Shown here piece by piece: positions 3,030-48,335 of a stretch of 64,000 bases of DNA. Under the pieces are notes generated by a model. The model ran no database searches and had not been told where the DNA came from. It was given only the letters and a program-made list of their open reading frames with translations. Position 1 is the first letter of the stretch, and the number at the start of each line of letters is the position of its first letter. The DNA comes from Sporodiniella umbellata (Eukaryota > Mucoromycota > Mucoromycetes > Mucorales > Rhizopodaceae). The position numbers and the translations under genes were made by a program. The stretch is from positions 1 to 64,000 of the forward strand of contig JAIXMR010000057.1 in the NCBI GenBank assembly GCA_025677835.1, in the 5' to 3' direction.

Positions 3030-3818
3030 TCAAACCCAAGCATTCAATACCGCCACAAAAGGCACCAACGCTTCCATCGTGTCCATCACTCGATCCAGAA
3101 AACCTTCACTGACCACTTGCTGGTCCGTAAAGGTCTTGTTCACCACAAAACTTTTGAACCGCAACAGTTCAATCTCTGGATGATCTTTTGCCACATGTTT
3201 CGGTGCCACCTTGAGCTTATCCTCCGTACAGAGCAAGGCTATCCCTGTCTGACCAGAGAACACCTCTTGAACGGCCTCGGTCGATAACGCCTGTCGTAAT
3301 AACTCGCCTTGGTCTACAATCGCACTTCTCACCCGACGCATGCTTTCTTTTCCCGGCTGCCATAAACCCACCGCCAGCAAGGACCGATCGCCAGGTTGGA
3401 TCTGTAAATAGTAGCCTGCATCCGTAAACTTTCGACCCTGGCGTGAGAAAGAAGCCGAGAGATACGTCTTGTAAGGCCGTTTGTCATTCGTAAACCGAAG
3501 ATCCCGATGCTGTCGATACACTGCCTGTTTGGCTTCTTCAATCAACACCTGTCTATCCACACACGGAAGCTCACGTATCACTTGCCCCACAAACCCTGTG
3601 AAATCCTTTCGTACTTGCTCCCACCATTCGCTCTTTAACCGCATAAAATCCCGTTCATTATTCACTTCTAATTCTGATAGAAACGCTAGACTTTCTACAC
3701 TTAGCGCATCCGCAAACGGTCCCCCCGTCACCTTGGGTCGTTTATAATCAGACCTTTGGAAACTTGAATCCCCAATCACTTCTTCATCCTCTGCTCTTTC
3801 CCTTTTTTTCAAGCCCAT
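3030..3818 (-). CDS. DUF2461 family protein
   Basis: A single-exon gene of 262 residues with an ATG at 3818-3816. Residues about 35-250 match the DUF2461 pattern: FLSELEVNNERDFM near the start, the RDLRFTNDKRPYKTYLSA core, GYYLQIQPGDRSLLAVGLWQP, and a LKVAPKHVAKDHPEIELLRFKS segment. The family occurs widely in bacteria and fungi; its biochemical role is unknown. The N-terminus is a K/R/E-rich leader that may be a nuclear signal (KKRER). It converges on the symporter's 3' end, with 49 bp between stops. No introns, in contrast to its neighbours. Confidence 0.9.
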   Translation of the reverse strand: MGLKKRERAEDEEVIGDSSFQRSDYKRPKVTGGPFADALSVESLAFLSELEVNNERDFMRLKSEWWEQVRKDFTGFVGQVIRELPCVDRQVLIEEAKQAVYRQHRDLRFTNDKRPYKTYLSASFSRQGRKFTDAGYYLQIQPGDRSLLAVGLWQPGKESMRRVRSAIVDQGELLRQALSTEAVQEVFSGQTGIALLCTEDKLKVAPKHVAKDHPEIELLRFKSFVVNKTFTDQQVVSEGFLDRVMDTMEALVPFVAVLNAWV

Positions 3819-3832
3819 GCTTCTAATTAATT

Positions 3833-3836
<4 letters not shown>

Positions 3837-3874
<38 letters not shown>
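3837..3874. repeat. Poly-A tract, 38 nt
   Basis: The longest homopolymer in the window. It lies about 18 bp upstream of the DUF2461 start codon, so on that gene's coding strand it is a poly-T core-promoter element. Confidence 0.85.
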
Positions 3875-3876
<2 letters not shown>

Positions 3877-4224
3877 AATTTATTCATCGACAGCCATTGC
3901 CTTGCTAACAAACCATTAGAATAGAATTTTTATTTATTGGGCCAAAAAGAATGATATGAATAAAAATAAAAAAAAGTAGTGTAACAATGTGCCTCATTTA
4001 CTTTTCAGTCTCTCTGCAAGGGAACCTTCTTTTTTTTTTTTTTTTTTGGGTTTAAGGAGAAGTGGGGGAAAGGGGAGATGGGCATGTTATAGAGAAAAAA
4101 GAGAGATTTGGTTTATACAGAACAGATGGAGAGGGAAAAAAAAAAAACCAAAAAAAAACCAAAGAGAGGTTCAAAATAATCGTATGAGTGTCAAAAAAAA
4201 AAAAAAACAATAAATTTCAGTCTA

Positions 4225-4264
4225 TGTGTGTATGTATGTATGTATGTGTGTGTGTGTGTGTGTG
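4225..4264. repeat. (TG)n/(TATG)n microsatellite
   Basis: An imperfect TGTG/TATG repeat about 80 bp upstream of the coiled-coil gene start. Confidence 0.8.
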
Positions 4265-4342
4265 ACGTTAAACTCGTGTGTTTATAGACTTTGAAAAATA
4301 AACTTTTTACAACTTCTTTTTCTTTTTTATATTTTTAATTTA

Positions 4343-5560
4343 ATGGCCATGTCAGAAACAAGATTCAGCGTGAATTCAAACTTGATGAATTATTCAATTC
4401 CTAGTGAAAGTCAACAAGATCATAAACGATTGATCAAGCTAGGAGACAGCGATACACATACTCGCCAGCTTGAAGTGCAGATAGAACAGCTCACACTGCA
4501 GAACGTGAAGCTTCAACGTACCAATCGGCTATTGAAAGTGGACATTGACAATTTAATCGAACAACATACGAGTCCGCTAGAAAAGACGATTGAAGAGCTC
4601 ACCGTAGCCAACATCCGACTTCAACGGGCCACCCGTCTTTTACAACAAGAATTAGACGAAAAATCCATCGAAGCCAATCAGTATAAAGAACATCAAATCC
4701 TCACCATGAAGTCAGTAGGTCCTGAATACGAATTTCTGGTGCAAAACATCAATTTGTTACAACGCCAAGTAAAAATAGATGGAAAAAAAGACAACTAACA
4801 ACAACAACAACCTTTAGATAGCTGGACACCCAACCTGTCAGGAAACATGTTGTTTTACTCTGAAGCCTATCGATCATTCCAATATGATCATGGCCTTACC
4901 TGAAAATGAAGAGGAAGAACTTGAGGCTCAACATATTTGCCGGCCTGTCATTCATTCCGACTTCTCCCAAGGCTCCTACGCATCTGGACTGGAGCACAGA
5001 ATCGTCGGACTCGAACAGTTGATTGAAGAATTGGAATCCGAAAAGGAACAGATGAACAAACAACATACTTACAAAGACATTGACCTCGAGACTCTCAAGA
5101 AAGAATTAAGGGTTAAAGACGAAATCGTCTCTCAACTGGAGCAAGACTTTGTCACTCTAGAAGATCAACTCATCCATTTGCAAAGGGTAAGTCAACCTGT
5201 GTACACCTTACTTTTCTAACCCTCGCTTTAGGAACTCGAAAGGCTCAATCGACATAACGACTTTCTTAGCAGATCTTCTATTCCACATCATCTCAAACGA
5301 CAATCTCAGCTATTGATGGAATCCAAACGAAGATCGCTTGCTATCAAAGATACAAACCTACTCGAACATCTCTTTAAAGGAGAATTACAATCCTCAGATG
5401 AATTCAGTAGTTGTAGTAGTAGTAGTACTAGTTCAGAAGAATACATCGATCCTTACAAAAAAGGTAACCCCCTCTATCCCATTCGCTTGTACCTCATCTC
5501 CCTTCTTTAGTGATCCTCAGTAAAGAAAATCGTTTGAGTTATCTGCGTGTCTTACCCTAA
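4343..5560 (+). CDS. Coiled-coil protein of unknown function
   Basis: Best model: exons 4343..4768, 4818..5186, 5232..5463 and 5511..5560, closing in frame to 358 residues. Residues about 35-135 and 190-290 are heptad-rich (RQLEVQIEQLTLQNVKLQ; LEQLIEELESEKEQ), and the C-terminus ends with a serine-rich stretch and NRLSYLRVLP. Intron 1 has a GTAAAA donor, a clear CTAAC branch site and a TTTAG acceptor, but the reading chosen just after it (IAGHPTC...) is less protein-like than the +1 frame (DSWTPNLSGNML...), so that junction may hide a frameshift or another splice site. No enzymatic motif is visible. I do not recognise a family; a scaffold or cytoskeletal role would be a guess. Confidence 0.7.
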
Positions 5561-18664: not shown

Positions 18665-19690
18665 ATGGTCGCCGAAAAAGCTGGTTTGATTTTAGGTGGT
18701 GCTGCCTTAGGTGCTGCCTCTTTTGCTGCCTATCAAAAGTTCTCGCAAAAACCTGCTAAGCCATTTGTACCTGTACCTATACCTCAGCAACAACAGCAGC
18801 CACAACAACAGCTCCAGCGACCACCTACTGTCAACAATGCCATGAATAACTTTGAAAAGGCTAAAACCATCTTACCTTTCGGCTTCCCTGGACCAGTTAA
18901 TGATATGGTTTACAGAAGCGCGTATGTTGTATCGCACAACCGACGTGATCGTAATCCCAATTGGGTAGCCGAGCATCTGACTGCTGACAGCTTGAAGCGC
19001 GGCCCCGATGTAGATCGTCAGAAATCTGCCTTTAAAGAAGATGACCACATCCCCCCTCAATTTAGAGCCAAATTGGCAGATTACTTCAAGAGCGGATTCG
19101 ATCGAGGACACATGGTGCCTGCTGCTGATGTAAAGAACAGCCAGGTATCTATGGATGAAACTTTTTATTTAACAAACATATCCCCTCAAGTAGGAGAAGG
19201 ATTTAACAGAAACTGTAAGATACACATATGTGCCGAAATACAATACTTATCTTTTTGTGTAGACTGGGCTCACCTTGAAAATTTTTGCCGAACCCTTACA
19301 CAAAAGTTTTCTGATGTATATGTCTTTACTGGGCCTTTGTATTTGCCTCGTCAAGAAGCTGATGGAAAGTTCTATGTCAAATACCAAATGATTGGCAACC
19401 CTCCCAATGTGGCTGTTCCCACACATTTCTACAAGGTTATCATGACTCATCACAATGGCAAGTATAGCGTGGGCGCTTTCGTGCTGCCAAATCAACCTAT
19501 TTCTGACAAAACACCCTTGGAGGCCTTCAAGGTACCTTTGGATGCTGTAGAAAGAGGGGCTGGTCTTGTCTTTTTTGAAAAAATGGGCGAGGCAAAGAAT
19601 GCTTTGCCTGACCTTTGCAGAGAAACCGAATGTAAAATGGTTATCAGAACATTTAATAATGCCCAGAAAAAAGCATTGCCTTCTCATTAA
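18665..19690 (+). CDS. NUC1: Mitochondrial DNA/RNA non-specific nuclease, EndoG/Nuc1
   Basis: Exons 18665..19214 and 19263..19690 give 325 residues. Splicing restores GFNRNYWAHLENFCRTL, as in EndoG; the 48-nt intron has no stop and is a multiple of three, so an unspliced reading stays open. An N-terminal membrane/targeting segment (LILGGAALGAASFAAYQKF) and a Q/P-rich linker precede the beta-beta-alpha-metal nuclease. The catalytic motif DRGHM is at about residues 146-150, followed by the metal-site segment TFYLTNISPQ. The enzyme resides in mitochondria and degrades nucleic acids in recombination and cell death. Its stop overlaps by 4 nt the stop of the convergent kinesin-like gene. Confidence 0.96.
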   Translation: MVAEKAGLILGGAALGAASFAAYQKFSQKPAKPFVPVPIPQQQQQPQQQLQRPPTVNNAMNNFEKAKTILPFGFPGPVNDMVYRSAYVVSHNRRDRNPNWVAEHLTADSLKRGPDVDRQKSAFKEDDHIPPQFRAKLADYFKSGFDRGHMVPAADVKNSQVSMDETFYLTNISPQVGEGFNRNCKIHICAEIQYLSFCVDWAHLENFCRTLTQKFSDVYVFTGPLYLPRQEADGKFYVKYQMIGNPPNVAVPTHFYKVIMTHHNGKYSVGAFVLPNQPISDKTPLEAFKVPLDAVERGAGLVFFEKMGEAKNALPDLCRETECKMVIRTFNNAQKKALPSH

Positions 19691-21878
19691 AAACACAGAA
19701 ATTTATTTTTTTTACTCATTACTTCTTGTAGCCTATCCTCCATAATTTCACGGGACTTCTTCTCCGTTGACGCTATGCTTTTTTCTTTTTCAAGGCTTTC
19801 GCATGCTTTTTTAAGCTTTTCTTTTAGTTCTTCTTGTTTTTGAAGCAAAGACTTGATATCTTCTTCTTGTTGATCTATTTTTACTTGTAAGTGGTTCAAA
19901 CTGTCGTCCCTTGAAAGCTTTTTGCTTTCTGCTCCTCCCTTAGGTAAAGGGGGAATAGGTTCCGTAGGTGGTTTGCCAAGAGGGGGAATATGTGAAGAGG
20001 GGTGCGGAGAGGCCTTGATTCCAGAATCGCTTTCTGGAGTTTCGTGTTTTTGTGATATTTTTTGTAATGCTGTTCCAGGTGGCGGCGTCCTGCGCTTTTC
20101 GTTGTCAGTACAGAAAAAGTCTTCTAGTTCTTCATTCTCTAAATTGTTTCGAAGATCTCCTTGTTTATGTTGATGACCAGCTGGCGTATAAACACTGTTA
20201 CCGCTACTACGTTTTTGTTCAGAGTCCTCTTGCATGAGCTGCTGATAAATAGCTGGCGATATCTGTTTGAATTTATCGATAAATTTTTGTTTACCCTTGA
20301 TGTCCCTTTCCATTGACTGTATTTTATTGAGGGCATATTCGTATGCCTTTTCGCAGTCTTCGTTTGCTCTCTGTTTCTCTATTTCCATTTTACTTAAATC
20401 AATTTCAAGCTTTTGTATCATTCCTGATATGTCGTTTTTTTCAAACATGTCACGATTTTCCAAAAGCTCTTGTTGTAGTTCATTTACTCGTCTATCAAGT
20501 GAATTGCAGCGAGCAGTCTGAAGGTCAAGTAAATGTTGAGTTTTTTCGGCAGCTTGCTGACGCTCCTGTAATTGAGATTGAAGTTTGTTTCTCTGTGCCT
20601 CGACCCCCTCCTGACTATTTAACAGGAATCGGACGTGTTTCAACTCCTCCATTACTTTAGTATCCCCCTGAGATACTTTTTGAACCGTATCCCACAGCTT
20701 TTGAAGCTCGTCACGGTCTGTGGTTAATTGCTTAAAGTTATAGGATATGCTTTCCAAATCCTTTTGTACATTCTCTTCTAAATGGGTGATCATTTCGTCT
20801 TGCAGAGATACCAGTTGGTCTAGACAGCCTATATGAGATATAGTCTCGTTTAATTCGTGCTCGGTTTGGGCGTTTTGAGCTCGTGCAGCACTCAATTGGT
20901 TTTGCAAATCATCAACTTGGTCAACTAACTCCTTTTCTTCTTCATTAGGTACCGTGAGATGGGTAAAGTTAGATATCGAGGAAAAAGTAGAATGGGCCTT
21001 GTCAGATATAGTTGAAATAGATTGAAGCGATCCTCTGCTGTGAGATCTTAATGAGCTAATTTCATGTGTCATTCTAAGTATTGTTTGGTGTAAATAGTCC
21101 TCAGTTTCGGGGTAGGGACCGGCCCTCTTATTAAGGCGAGACAGAATATCAAGGGAATTGCTAACCATTTCTATATCATCTATTTGACTGATCGAAGCTA
21201 GTAATGTAGTAGTGTCGTCGTTTATAAGCTGAATGATTTGTTCAGGATTTGAGCCAGATATATCAGTAATGCTTAGCTGTGAGGATTTGTTTTCTTGTTG
21301 TATATAAACTGTGAATATTGAATGGGAGTCTGAGTGACGGTTGGAAGCACCGAGTTTGTAATACCTATACTATGTTAAACTACCTACTCATTTAGGCACC
21401 CTCGTTTTTTTCTTTCTTTACCTCAGCATATCGGTTATATTTGTTACGTGTATTGTCTTTTGCTCCAAAAGGTTATGAGTGGCATCGCTTACGACTTCAG
21501 AAAATTCTATGTGTATTGTACATTGATTGTTGTTAAATAAAGGTGATAGGGATAGAATGAGTTTTGTATCTAGCAAATTGTTTCTATTGTGTAATGGATC
21601 CTTTTGTTATGTTAGTGTAACTTGAACTCTTGTACATTTTAAAAAGGAGTCAAACTCACATAAATAGTGATATTCGAATCTTGGCCTAATTGAAGGTAAT
21701 CAGAGATGGAGTCTAACAACACAATATACCTTCAATCAAATCACTAAGTATTTTTTCTGAGAAGTAGCAATCGGATTGGCCTGCCAGATCGAACACATAA
21801 TCAAACATATAAATAGGTGCATTTGTGGCAGACGGTAAAATGACTTGCGTTTCTGATATCTTAATTACATGATCATTG
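19687..21878 (-). CDS. Kinesin-related coiled-coil protein with a degenerate motor domain (5' end unresolved)
   Basis: Exons 21364..19687, 21600..21422 and 21712..21660 join in frame. Upstream, 21878..21730 is joined only if 21729..21713 (GT...AG, 17 nt) is removed. The fold traces a kinesin motor: PIYMFDYVFDLAGQSDCYFS (FDxVF), SNITIY (TIFAY strand), TIHIEFSEVVSDATHNLL (VSxxEIYNE-DLL), SNRHSDSHSIFTVYIQQ (switch I, NxxSSRSHxIF) and LSITDISGSN (switch II, DLAGSE). No GxxxxGK[ST] P-loop follows the TIFAY-like strand, and both switches are altered, so ATP hydrolysis is unlikely. About 490 residues of coiled coil and a P-rich acidic tail follow. It resembles a pseudo-motor such as Smy1 in principle. 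The first exon was not found; a decayed gene cannot be excluded. Confidence 0.75.
21713..21729 (-). other. Putative 17-nt intron or frameshift in the kinesin-like gene
   Basis: On the minus strand this begins GTATAT and ends TTGTTAG. Removing it restores the frame between DLIE and SISDYLQLG; retaining it produces a stop within six codons. It is far shorter than the other introns here (about 40-65 nt). Confidence 0.4.
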
Positions 21879-22080
21879 CTATAAGATGGGAATAGTAGAC
21901 ACAACGCTTAACAGTAGTCAGTTTTGGGTCTATTGTTCTCAAAAAAAAAAAAAAAGTGATAAAATCTGTTTACCAATTTTTAAGCTATTTGACATGTTTT
22001 TTTATACAAAAAGAGGAAAAGAAGAAAAAGAAAAGTTTTATTTTCGATATTTATGTTTAAATAATTGAAAAAGAGTAAAA

Positions 22081-27743: not shown

Positions 27744-30700
27744 ATGAATGAACAGATCAGGCACCAAAATGATGGCCAGAAGTGGAACATGAATCACAGA
27801 TCTACACCAAATCGAAGAGAGAACAACTCATTAAGAGATCACAAAGAAGCCGGAGACTCGAAAGGATTTAGAGACTATAAATACTTAGAGCTAAAGAATC
27901 TCAACCCAAAAACGCATAGCTCTACACTATTTGATTACTTCCAGAAGTTTTGCCAAGTAGAGAAGACAAAATTGAACTCTGATGATAGTGCCGATTCTCC
28001 CAATGGAACAGCTACGATTACTTTTCGTCAGATCCCAAAAGGCAGTCTCCGCGACGACTTAGCACAACGGCACAGAATCGATGGTTTCTGGGTACAGGCG
28101 CAATTCTCTATAGAGGATGCAAGCTATGCTCAGCAAAGATACTCTGATCACTCCACTTTGAATGCCCAAAGACTATCACTAGGAAATTTTATCAATACAA
28201 AACATTTTGTGGAGCATTGGTCAACAGAAACTGGTGTCAAATACAAGGTCGTTTACTCAAGACGCTCTGTTGACATACATTTCGTACACTTTAATATAGA
28301 GTACCGTGTGAACTACAACTTCAAAGAGGTAGAGGGAAGCATGGTTGTCGAAAAAGAGAACAACAATACGACGTTTACCATTCCACTACGGTATGTATAT
28401 ACATGTACATATATCAAATTTTTTTCAATTTATCTTTTTCTCTATCACTTAGGTACCCAACACGATATTGGAGACGAAGAGATGGAGTTTTCTATGAAAC
28501 TAAAATGGAAAAATCAGCAAGTGGATGGGAAAGGGTTACAACCATCCCACTATTAGAAACAAGCAAGTCCGAGAAAAAACTAAAAAGACCACTATTGCCG
28601 CTTCCTGAAGAAGAATCCGTCAAAATTGGAGTTTGGACTGTTCTCCGATTAACTTTTTCACCTGAATCCAGAGGTATAGCATTGTTCAACAAGGAGATGC
28701 AAAGAGCAACTGAGTACAACCTTGTGCCTCGTGACCTTAATAAAATGAAGCCTTGTATTAAAGTTACACCTGCTAGTGAACTGCCTGCGCCCTTAAATTA
28801 TTTTGATAGACTTGGATACGACTTTGATTTCAATACTTTCTATTCACTAGAGTCTGCTATTTCTTATGGATACATTAACGAAAATAATATCGACAAAGAA
28901 TTCTACTCAACTATCAAACAACTAGACTCTTCGGTTGTCTGTGGCATATTGGACTTGATCAGTCTGAACAAAAAACGTGTATGGGAGCCGATGACGACTT
29001 TTAGAAACACATGGAGTAAGATGGAGCTAAAGGTGTGTCAGTCGCGAAAAATACCTAATCACTGTGCAATGTTGCGTAAAGTGATTGTCACTCCCAGCAA
29101 AATTTATCTTCAACCTCCCAACCTGGAAACAACAAACCGTGTAGTGAGACATTATAAAGACCACACCGATCGCTTTATCCGTGTACAGTTTACAGATGAC
29201 GGTTTTGGTCGTGTTGGTGCAGCGCGCGCCAAAACCACTAATGAAAATATCTACAATCGCATTTTTGCTGTATTAAAACGTGGCATAAAAATCAGTGATA
29301 GAACATACGAGTTCTTGGCGTTCTCTAGTTCCCAATTACGCGAACACGGCTGCTGGTTTTTTGCCTCAACTCCAGATCTTACACCCGACATGATCCGGAG
29401 CTGGATGGGCGTGTTCTCACACGAGAAAGTTGTTGCTAAACACGCTGTTCGTATGGGCCAATGCTTTTCCTCAACAAGGCCTGTTTGCCATCTGGAAGAA
29501 GATGAAGTGGATTTTATAAAAGATGTGGTCCATAACAAGTTTACATTTTCGGATGGTGTTGGTCGAATAGCACCCTCATTAGCTAATGAAGTGGCTTTGC
29601 AAATGGAAATCAGAACAATTCCGAGTGCTTTTCAGTTTCGTCTTGGTGGAGCCAAAGGCGTTTTAACAGTTGATAACAACCTATCTGAAGGAAAAATAAA
29701 AATTCAGCTTCGACCCAGTCAAAAAAAGTTCGAATCCAAGCATCTAACTTTAGAAGTTATAAGGACATCCACCTACATCCATGGATATTTGAATCGTCAA
29801 GCAATTACTTTGCTCTCTTCTCTAGGAGTAAAAGACGACGTTTTTTTGGAGCTTATGAGAAACATGCTTCGCGATATTGACAAAGTTTTGTCTCAGCCAG
29901 AAGAAGCCGTCCGCGTTTTGTTGAGCAATACAGACGAAGCAGGAACAGCCCCTACAATGGCAACCATTATCCAAGCTGGTTTCTTGGAAAGGGGCGATCC
30001 GTATATAAAAAATCTGTTGAACCTTTTCCGTGTAAACATTTTGAAAGACTTGAAAAAAAAGGCAAAGATCCTGGTACCTCACGGTGCATTTTTGCTAGGT
30101 GTGATGGATGAAACAGGAGCGCTAGAGGAAGGCGAAGTCTTTGTGCAAGTATGGGATACCTCAAAGAATGGAACTATAAACCAAGTGATTACAGGAGATT
30201 GCGTTGTATTTCGTAACCCTTGCTTTCACCCAGGCGATATTCGTGTTGTGAAAGCAGTTAATCGTTCTGAACTACAACATTTGTCAAATGTCATTGTTTT
30301 CTCTTCTAAAGGATTTAGAGATATACCAAGTATGTGCTCAGGTGGAGATTTAGATGGAGACGATTATACGTATGAAAAAAGAAAAAAATAACCTTTCATA
30401 TTCCTATTTGTTCAAAACGGTTCTCTTATCTTTAGTATATTTTGGGACCATAAGCTTATGCCCATAAAAAGAAACTACACTGCAATGGATTATACCGCAC
30501 CAAGCCCTAGGCTTGTGGAAGATGTAACAATTAGTGACATAAAGAAGTTTTTTGTCAATTATATAAATAACGACAACCTCGGTCAAATTGCAAATGCACA
30601 TCTTGCTACAGCTGATGCAAGCGACAAAGGCGCTTTAGACGGAAAGTGTATCAAGCTAGCACATCTTCATTCAGAAGCAGTTGGTAAAACAAAAAAATAA

Positions 30701-45306: not shown

Positions 45307-48300
45307 ATGGCGCATTTGCAATGTCGACAGCTGCATTCAAGTGCCAGACTAAGCATTGGGCATCGCCTTTTACATCAGTCTAAATCGCCTTCATTAATTT
45401 ACAGCTGTCAAATGAGATCAGCCGCTCATCTATCTACAGGAACCAAAAAAGGTAATCAAGAGAAAGAGGAAGCTTAATTAAATGCTAATTAAAAGATTCT
45501 ATAGATCCTCTTAAAGACTACTTAGATAAAATAGATCAGAACCTTATTCGAGAACAAAAAATAGCCTCCAAGCAAAGAATTCCTCTAAATGTCACTTCTA
45601 AAATCAGCAATCAAGTGGAATCGTCTGTCCTCTTGTCTCTTCATTCTAACCTCACCTCCGACCAGCATCAAGAAGCCTGGAAAACATTTGACAAAGCAAC
45701 CTTGCCTCTTGGGAAACAGCCTATTCCTCCAGCTACAGCCAAGCTATTATTAAAATCGCTTCAAAAAGATGTCATTACCCATCAACCTAAACTTTTGCTC
45801 AAACTTAGAAAACTAGAGCATCTATATTCAATGCGACTGGAAAAATTGGTTGGAATTACTCAAAAGAGCTATCTCTGGGAAACGCCTGAATTCTGTACCA
45901 TAATTGAGTTATATGGTAGATTAAGTCAAGTCAACCGAGCTGAATCCATACTTCGACATATATTTCGGTATTGCCAGGACGCGCCGTCTATCGAAGTTTA
46001 CAATGAGCTAATAGCAGTTTATGTTCGACGTTTCCGAGGAGAAAACGATCTTACTAAAAAACGATATATTTCAAAAATGGATACAATTCTACAAGAAATT
46101 TCACGAAAAGGTTTGGAGCCCAACACAACAACTTACAACTTGCTATTAGCCGCCAAAGTTAAATTCCAAGATTTGAAAGGAGCAGAGAAAGTTTATTCGA
46201 AAATGACAACACCGCCCAACAGAATGACCTATAATATTTTATTGAATGGCTTTTCCAGAGGGGGAAAAACCCCGGAAGACAAGATAATTATCGATGAGTG
46301 GATGGCGAGAATGATAGCTTCCGGAATTTCTCCAGACTTAAGAACATTTAAGAATCTTATAGACGGCCTAGTAGAACAAACAAAATATCACGCTCAAATG
46401 GGCGAGAAGGAAGAGATGGATACCGCTGTTCAATCAGCTTCAGATATTTATGCAATTGCAGCTCAATTCGGGCACGACATTGACTTAGAGACAACAAACA
46501 ACCTACTTCGATGTTACACTGCTGCTAACAACTCAGAAAAAGTAGAAAAAATAGTGGGAATGCTGGCACTTCCAGAAAAAAAAGGGGGTTGTGGAAACTG
46601 TGGATGTAGTAACAAAGATAATCAGGATAAAAAACAAGAGCCTTTGTCAAAGCAAATTACTCCAGATCTGTATACCTTCAACATCTTGATTAAACACCAC
46701 TTATCAAATGGAAACGTTAACAAAGCGTTCCAAACCTATGACACTATGGTGACTATGGATCATGAGCCGGACGTAGTGACTTACAGTAATTTTATATCGT
46801 ACTATACTAAGCAAGGCAAAATTGAAGAGGGCTTGAAATACCTTGATGTAATGCAGAAAAAAGGCATACCTACCAACATTTATATATACAACATACTATT
46901 GTCATCTTCGGTCAAATATCCCGAATACTCACATTTAATATCTCCACATTTAAACTCGATTATTACCTCAGGAACTGTCATGGATAGTATTTCGAGAAAC
47001 ATTCTTATTTTAAAGAGCTCAAAAAAAGACAATTTAGATACCAGCTTTGAAAACCTTTTGGATTCACTAGACCAAAACCTTTTCTCAGTCAACGACAATG
47101 AATTTGGCACCAATATAAGCACTCGAACACACAACACGTTGTTGCAAGCTGCAGGTCAATTTTATAAATCTAGACGTGAGAGATTTGCTCAAGAATTAGG
47201 CTCAGTTATGTCGACTTTAAATACCTCGAACGTTCGGCCTGACATGTTGACATTCGCTCTCAGTATTCGTAACGCTTGCTATCAAGGAGATATGGAAAGA
47301 GCAGAAGCTATTTACAAATCCATGGTGAAAGCTGGCATCAAACCTAATACGTATGTTTTTTCACACCTGATTTATGGTTACAGTCTTACTGGAAAGTTGG
47401 ATAAGGCTCTAGACACTTTGGAGAAGATGCCATCTTATAACGTTTTACCTAATGCTATCAATTATGCGCCTCTTATAAAGGCTTGTGTAGATTCTGCTGA
47501 GTATCAAAAGGCACACAGTCTATTTGAAAAGATGTTAAGCAGAAATATCAAGGCAGATATTTCTATTTACACTATTATAGCAGAGGCCTTTTTACAACAG
47601 GAGAGCTGCAAAAAAGCTATCGATTTATTGGAGAGTGTGGAAAAATCTGGCATACGTATGGACCTTAAATCGCTAACGCTATTAGTGGACGCATATGGTC
47701 TTGACGCTGAATCCAAAATGGAAATCGACGAAAAGTCTTTTGAGCAAGTAGATAGCCTGAAAAACTGCTTAAATATACATACTATCAAAATCAACAATAT
47801 TTACAGTACACTGAGACAGAAAAAATGGCTTGATCCTCAAGCAGTCTTTGTTTTACTAGAAGCGCATATTCGTATGAAAAATCTGGGTGCAGCTTGGGCG
47901 CTGTGGAATGAATGTATACCACTGGGCATTCTTCATTCTGCTCATTACAACCTACTTATTACAGGATTCTCCAAAGACAAGACATGGTACCCAATTGCTA
48001 GGATGACCTATGATAATATGGTACGCGAAAACGGGCTACGGGCGAACGCCTTTACATTCGACACTATGATTTGGTCAGCTTACGTTATGGATGATAGTCA
48101 AACCATCAAAGAACTATGGTGCTCACCGGACCGAAGAGACATAAAAACGAATATGCCATATGCATTAATGGTGCGTACGTATTACGCAGTTATAAGTACC
48201 ATGTTAAAAAGCAACATGTTGAGCATTGCAAAAAGCGCTCTTAAAGAATACCAAACAATACCTAGCTCCCCAGATTCGTCAACCATTTGGAACAAAAAAA

Positions 48301-48335
48301 TTGGGCGCATTAGCTCAACATTACGCTACAACTAA
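45307..48335 (+). CDS. Mitochondrial pentatricopeptide repeat (PPR) protein
   Basis: Exons 45307..45451 and 45505..48335 join in frame to 991 residues. The first exon (MAHLQCRQLHSSARLSIGHR) is Arg/Ser/Leu-rich without acids, a mitochondrial presequence. More than ten 35-residue PPR units follow, with signatures GLEPNTTTYNLLLAAKVK, PDLYTFNILIKHHLSNGN, EPDVVTYSNFISYYTKQGK, IKPNTYVFSHLIYGYSLTGK and RANAFTFDTMIWSAYV. Fungal PPR proteins of this size act in organelle RNA processing or translation. A small Cys-rich insertion (KGGCGNCGCSN, near 46585-46617) interrupts the array and is unusual. The RNA target cannot be read with confidence. Confidence 0.92.

Follow-up and report, generated by a model that had tools for sequence, protein, structure and literature searches.

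A conserved kinesin-like protein without ATP-binding motifs in Sporodiniella umbellata and its probable kinesin-4 origin

Sporodiniella umbellata belongs to the Mucorales, family Rhizopodaceae. Its genome assembly (25.9 Mb, 198 contigs) was searched, and the gene described here lies in a stretch of 64,000 nucleotides at the start of one contig (C152:1-64000, hereafter the window). According to splice prediction it occupies positions 19687-21995 of the minus strand, and its five exons encode 693 amino acids without an inner stop. The introns are all of the GT-AG type and measure 67, 44, 59 and 57 nt. We call the product the pseudo-kinesin, i.e. a protein whose head (residues 1-216, N-terminal) is kinesin-like in fold and has lost the motifs of a motor. 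A preliminary description of the locus, based on the letters alone, had placed the gene at 19687..21878; the 3' end was right, but exon 1 (21974-21995) and the start of exon 2 (21906) had been missed. The NCBI protein P0001 of the same species (501 aa, partial) matches the pseudo-kinesin at 501 out of 501 residues, the four exon joins included. P0001 omits 19 residues of the coil (372-390), which we kept in the model because the Rhizopus stolonifer protein P0002 has them in similar form. The parts are listed below, where the intact paralogs are two genes of the same genome, apparently of the kinesin-4 type.

21974..21995, minus strand: exon 1, MSNSLKI, strand beta1 (splice model; identical letters in P0001; intron site common to both intact kinesin-4 paralogs)
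21730..21906, minus strand: exon 2, end of beta1, FDYVFD (beta2), helix alpha1 (splice model and structure model)
21660..21685, minus strand: exon 3, GQDSNITIY, strand beta3 at the TIFAY position (splice model, intron comparison)
21422..21600, minus strand: exon 4, P-loop replacement, short alpha2, beta5, alpha3 (splice and structure models)
21532..21600, minus strand: residues 76-98, DPLHNRNNLLDTKLILSLSPLFN, at the place of GQTSSGKT...GIIPRAMTALF (ortholog comparison)
19687..21364, minus strand: exon 5, beta6-beta8, alpha6, neck, coiled coil, Pro-rich linker, C-terminal helix, stop (splice model)
21322..21336, minus strand: HSDSH at the switch I place (SSRSH) (alignment)
21247..21264, minus strand: DISGSN at the switch II place (DLAGSE) (alignment)
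21211..21246, minus strand: 12 residues from DISGSN to beta8, at the place of alpha4-L12-alpha5, the tubulin interface (paralog comparison)
21043..21120, minus strand: neck helix, similar to kinesin-4 necks, DYLHQTILRMTHEISSLRS versus DYLKQIITKLKAEIKSLRH (alignment, structure model)
20257..20940, minus strand: coiled coil, residues about 277-504 (structure model, heptad signal)
19924..20256, minus strand: linker of low complexity, rich in Pro, with PPLGKPPTEPIPPLP (the two intact kinesin-4 paralogs have this motif too)
19690..19713, minus strand: C-terminal KKNKFLCF (the form KK[NS]K[FY]xCF-stop is common to all three paralogs found)

In the structure model the long helix of the coil spans residues 277-493 or thereabouts. 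The coil is followed by a Pro/Ser-rich stretch with little heptad signal and then by a helix of about 70 residues at the C terminus, the latter read from the AlphaFold model of the R. microsporus protein. The earlier figure of about 490 residues of coiled coil was therefore too high. Coiled-coil matches in Pfam were weak and below the cut-off (KIF21A_4th in P0004, 24.9 versus 33.1 bits) and were discarded.

The head and its conservation

The kinesin motifs named in the preliminary description are all present in the spliced minus-strand product, i.e. FDYVFD, NITIY (TIFAY-like), IHIEFSEV (VSFxEIYNE-like), HSDSHSIFTVYI and DISGSN. Its statement that the P-loop is absent also holds, as the three minus-strand frames between 19601 and 24000 contain neither G-x4-GK[ST] nor [AG]-x4-GK, and a hidden exon with GxxxxGKT is thus not seen in the locus. 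The P-loop GxxxxGK[ST] is likewise missing at its place in the alignment of P0002, of P0004 (R. microsporus) and of P0005 (R. arrhizus). The segment that stands there instead (residues 76-98) has 20/23, 16/23 and 20/23 residues in common with P0002, P0004 and P0005, respectively, and is therefore a conserved motif in its own right. A further R. stolonifer model, P0003, is fused to the neighbouring gene and carries letters of that gene at this place, where it has 10/23.

The alignment bore out the change of SSRSH to HSDSH and of DLAGSE to DISGSN. At the switch I place the pseudo-kinesin, P0002, P0004 and P0005 read HSDSH, NLDAH, DPSTT and SPSAT, and at the switch II place DISGSN, DISGLS, DISGQD and NIS-S, meaning that the canonical motif is found in none of them. 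The loss goes beyond the ATP motifs, to which the earlier description had confined it. Helix alpha4, loop 12 and helix alpha5 form the main microtubule contact of kinesins, and this cluster is counted as defining for the motor domain. The spacing between switch II and beta8 is 59 and 61 residues in the intact paralogs versus 12 in the pseudo-kinesin, so the cluster is absent; two AlphaFold models show one helix of 7-8 residues in this short stretch. The gap falls within a single uninterrupted exon. Moreover, the pseudo-kinesin lacks the long insertions that precede beta5 and beta7 in the intact paralogs, and the complete motor head of a kinesin-4 is not present.

Structure comparison found the kinesin fold in two AlphaFold models. 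The earlier proposal of a pseudo-motor, i.e. a kinesin fold without ATP motifs, is thus supported by the gene model, the fold and the orthologs. Vik1 was not among the 50 matches listed in the fold searches, which excludes nothing. The search of viral folds was uninformative: its best match (E 3e-7) was to a protein without a name at a root-mean-square deviation of 24, and two proteins named as kinesins had E 0.0015 and 0.012.

Protein models without P-loop and without stops exist in three Rhizopus species (R. stolonifer, R. microsporus and R. arrhizus), where further stops would have been expected of the plain pseudogene considered earlier. P0004 and P0005 represent clusters of 14 and 27 sequences. 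Identity to the pseudo-kinesin is higher in the head than in the coil for P0002 (176/241 versus 126/245), P0004 (132/238 versus 92/245) and P0005 (103/183 versus 77/199). In the fused P0003 the two values are close (129/240 versus 127/245), because the first part of that model belongs to the neighbour gene. Coils may evolve faster, so this comparison indicates that the head is held and not how strongly. The Ser-rich block next to the head is the best conserved part in comparison to R. stolonifer (31/33), and the tail linker is poorly conserved (22/80). Wider protein searches, with a profile of five sequences and with residues 1-290 of P0002, returned the same five proteins, all from Rhizopodaceae, and no intermediate that still bears a P-loop; the initial search and the profile search scored only the candidates with the largest number of words in common with the query, and distant orthologs may be missed. 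Exon 5 had no match among plasmids, as expected for a fungal gene.

Kinesin-4 paralogs in the same genome

With P0004 as query, the S. umbellata genome yielded 11 matches at E <= 1, five in the pseudo-kinesin gene, four at C152:96752-101511, one on contig C144 and one at the C terminus of an intact kinesin gene on contig C38. The gene at C152:96752-101511 also encodes an intact kinesin and shares its contig with the pseudo-kinesin, at a distance of about 75 kb. The spliced C152 and C38 paralogs have 1485 and 1666 amino acids and carry the P-loop GQTSSGKT. KIF4, KIF21/KLP-12 and KIF7/Costal-2 are members of the kinesin-4 family. The best matches of the C152 head, among the best 60 of 128 PDB sequences, were 7x4n_E ('Kinesin-like protein', which we take to be KLP-12), KIF4 and KIF7, and by these matches the C152 paralog is assigned to the kinesin-4 type. 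Three further low-scoring kinesin-like stretches (C153:152618-153010, C14:3573-4356 and C166:321159-321806; 27-88 bits for the motor profile) are possibly divergent kinesins.

It is conspicuous that all four introns of the pseudo-kinesin are at paralog sites. Introns 1, 3 and 4 are common to both intact genes and intron 2 to the C38 gene, in the same phase throughout; the chance of such agreement is 4e-10 (3e-7 with slack) if insertion sites are assumed to be random. The end of exon 3 is the exact start of the P-loop exon in the intact paralogs, and the paralog intron that is absent from the pseudo-kinesin sits between the P-loop exon and the GIIPRAM exon. The head itself is weakly similar to those of the two intact paralogs, yet above chance, at z 3.9-8.0, values that were reached by 0-3 of 500 shuffles in each of six comparisons. 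In the profile comparison residues 99-160 matched locally (E 3e-5), with a probability of no more than 73%.

The similarity extends through the tail. In BLASTP the C152 paralog matched residues 221-433 (neck and first coil, E 1e-9), 411-469 (the segment with D-x-[ST]-G, E 2e-5) and 643-693 (C terminus, E 3e-7), while the C38 paralog matched only at the C terminus (3e-6) and in one stretch of the head (5e-6). Of the seven proteins examined, all but C144 have the Pro-rich motif, all but the C38 paralog have the D-x-[ST]-G motif, and KK[NS]K[FY]xCF terminates five (not P0002 and P0005). Both intact paralogs end in KKSKFMCF. A DNA pattern for the C-terminal motif gave two matches and missed the pseudo-kinesin itself, so it is uninformative on the number of such tails.

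The paralog on C144 (C144:144229-145974, plus strand; 3730-5475 of the locus L027) is headless. Its 581 amino acids begin close to the Ser block found next to the motor and comprise this block, a coil and the end KKSKYSCF. tblastn over 8 kb at this locus found no upstream motor above chance level (best E 0.15), although a much decayed remnant is possible; positions 3406-3579 of L027 were hit by three related queries, at E 2.3-5.2. In other words, S. umbellata has two kinesin-4 motors whose motifs are intact, a stripped head and a headless tail.

Judged by intron sites, tail similarity and the family of the C152 paralog, the pseudo-kinesin appears to descend from a kinesin-4 gene. It has the intron sites, neck, first coil and tail ends of the two kinesin-4-type paralogs but differs from them by the missing P-loop, switches and alpha4-L12-alpha5, and by its much shorter chain. 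Fungal kinesin-4 has been reported in filamentous basidiomycetes, Aspergillus nidulans and Ustilago maydis (PMC8950801), and within the family Cos2 is perhaps devoid of motor activity (PMC2867816).

Possible roles

The fold, the losses, the origin and the conservation can be read from sequences or models, and we give an even chance to the reading that the pseudo-kinesin is a conserved non-motor offshoot of kinesin-4 which acts, as a coiled-coil adaptor or regulator, on the partners that bind the tails of the active motors. A kinesin-4 gene was probably duplicated. As sequence and models show, the head has lost the P-loop, the switch motifs and the microtubule interface alpha4-L12-alpha5 and kept the kinesin core sheet; the tail is shortened but still has the first coil, the Pro-rich motif and, at its C terminus, the KKxKFxCF helix. 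The product would dimerise via its coil, and its shared tail would dock on partners of the active kinesin-4 motors, or else the protein would pair with those motors. The stripped head may then be an ATP-independent protein-binding platform, by which the motor or its cargo would be tethered or held back. From the missing parts, the head is predicted neither to hydrolyse ATP nor to bind microtubules in the usual way. More tentatively, a head without ATP site and tubulin-facing stretch may have been selected as a pure protein-binding module within a four-member kinesin-4 set that shares the C-terminal motif and jointly tunes kinesin-4 in Rhizopodaceae.

Several observations weigh against the adaptor reading. 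The Pfam profile PF00225 (Kinesin) remained below its 29.3-bit cut-off for the pseudo-kinesin head (16.0) and the R. stolonifer head (19.2), and gave no match for the R. microsporus head or for any of the five longer sequences given. Of the checks suggested in the preliminary description, the profile search by itself thus stayed under the cut-off, and structure prediction recovered the kinesin fold. By sequence search no PDB sequence matched at E <= 1. The AlphaFold models, made from four sequences, have a whole-chain mean predicted local distance difference test (pLDDT) of 58-59, and for the majority of residues 1-50 the value is under 50. In the beta8-alpha6 part the head is no better conserved in P0002 (21/43) than the coil, and the P0002 and P0005 models lack the C-terminal motif (P0005 also beta1-beta2), perhaps through model errors. 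Finally, the shared tail could have been inherited without shared partners.

The preliminary description suggested, by analogy with Smy1, a role as an adaptor for cargo or at the cortex. The Smy1 type is characterised by binding to class V myosin, and we know of no named parent of Smy1 in the same genome. A scaffold similar to Smy1 or KIF26, with partners unrelated to kinesin-4 motors (myosin, cortex, signalling), is in our view unlikely, yet it is the alternative that survives best. Smy1 is also a fungal kinesin relative, and it reportedly deviates both in the ATP pocket and at the sites of microtubule binding (PMC3387196), as does the pseudo-kinesin; it has been placed in kinesin-1 (PMC5076506) or kinesin-11 (PMC3387196), whereas the parent of the pseudo-kinesin is probably a kinesin-4. 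KIF26A and KIF26B, of kinesin-11, are likewise non-motors with broken ATP motifs, and KIF26B is without IFAYGQT, DLAGSE and ATPase activity (PMC3387196). Grb2 is bound by Kif26a (PMC10585591), and the Ser-rich block next to the head, the part best conserved in comparison to R. stolonifer, fits a scaffold as well. However, both KIF26 proteins still bind microtubules, KIF26A without hydrolysis (PMC10585591; for KIF26B PMC3387196), which is not predicted for the pseudo-kinesin, and the kinesin-4 tail ends suggest partners shared with the motors. The pseudo-kinesin may or may not belong to pseudoKinesin-21, an orphan group that is described as confined to fungal taxa (PMC5076506).

It is less probable still that the dead head, in the manner of Vik1 or Cik1, heterodimerises with an intact kinesin-4 and alters its stepping, e.g. 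as an ATP-independent foothold on the microtubule. In its neck and first coil the pseudo-kinesin is similar to the intact paralogs, but with alpha4-L12-alpha5 reduced to 12 residues a foothold would lack its usual tubulin-binding surface. The motor homology domain of Cik1 is C-terminal. That of Vik1 is C-terminal too (PMC3544905), and the head of the pseudo-kinesin is at the opposite end. Cik1 and Vik1 are non-catalytic partners of Kar3 (PMC4338441) and likewise carry a non-catalytic head of kinesin fold on a coiled coil (PMC4338441, PMC3544905); the pseudo-kinesin differs from these kinesin-14 partners by its apparent kinesin-4 origin, its N-terminal head and the missing microtubule interface. 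The non-catalytic head of Cik1 is required for processive movement of Kar3 (PMC4338441). In one study Vik1 rotates with the coiled coil instead of remaining on the microtubule (PMC3544905). A partner head thus does not have to hold tubulin all the time, and a kinesin-4 heterodimer is conceivable without a tubulin surface.

Decay of a duplicate towards a pseudogene would explain the lost head motifs, the headless paralog in the same genome and the scarcely conserved tail linker. Nevertheless, we consider it very improbable, since the head is conserved above the coil and Rhizopus models without P-loop exist; the protein models of four species are free of stops, the clusters are sizeable and the P-loop replacement is itself conserved. 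That a missed exon or an assembly fault conceals the P-loop is barely credible, for although the exon joins are predictions, no Walker-A-like string is present in the frames searched, the same replacement occurs in three Rhizopus species and alpha4-L12-alpha5 is missing within one exon.

A kinesin fold turned non-motor is already known, and the double departure from ATP pocket and microtubule sites is already stated for Smy1; the outright loss of the tubulin-facing stretch looks new. Among the open-access papers listed by literature searches we recognised none on this gene or on a Mucorales kinesin-4 without P-loop, nor did we see there the present variant, i.e. kinesin-4 parents in the same genome, a new motif for the P-loop, the tubulin stretch gone and the head conserved. 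Here the parents are in the same genome, each lost piece can be assigned to its exon, and the head remains conserved although it has shrunk. This allows one to ask what purpose a kinesin fold serves without ATP hydrolysis and without a hold on tubulin, and whether degenerate copies of kinesin-4 motors control the motors from which they derive.

Neighbouring genes

Upstream on the same strand lies a CDP-alcohol phosphatidyltransferase gene, one exon of which matches PF01066; only about 85 nt (21996-22080) separate its stop from the pseudo-kinesin ATG. The R. stolonifer model P0003 fuses the phosphatidyltransferase with the pseudo-kinesin, so the neighbourhood is conserved in that species. At the other end the pseudo-kinesin stop overlaps the 3' end of a convergent endonuclease frame (PF01223) by four bases (19687-19690). 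Further along the window there is an RNA-dependent RNA polymerase of the RNAi type (28295-30391, plus strand; PF05183, 513 bits) and a 948-aa frame rich in PPR repeats (45489-48335, plus strand), probably an organelle RNA-binding protein.
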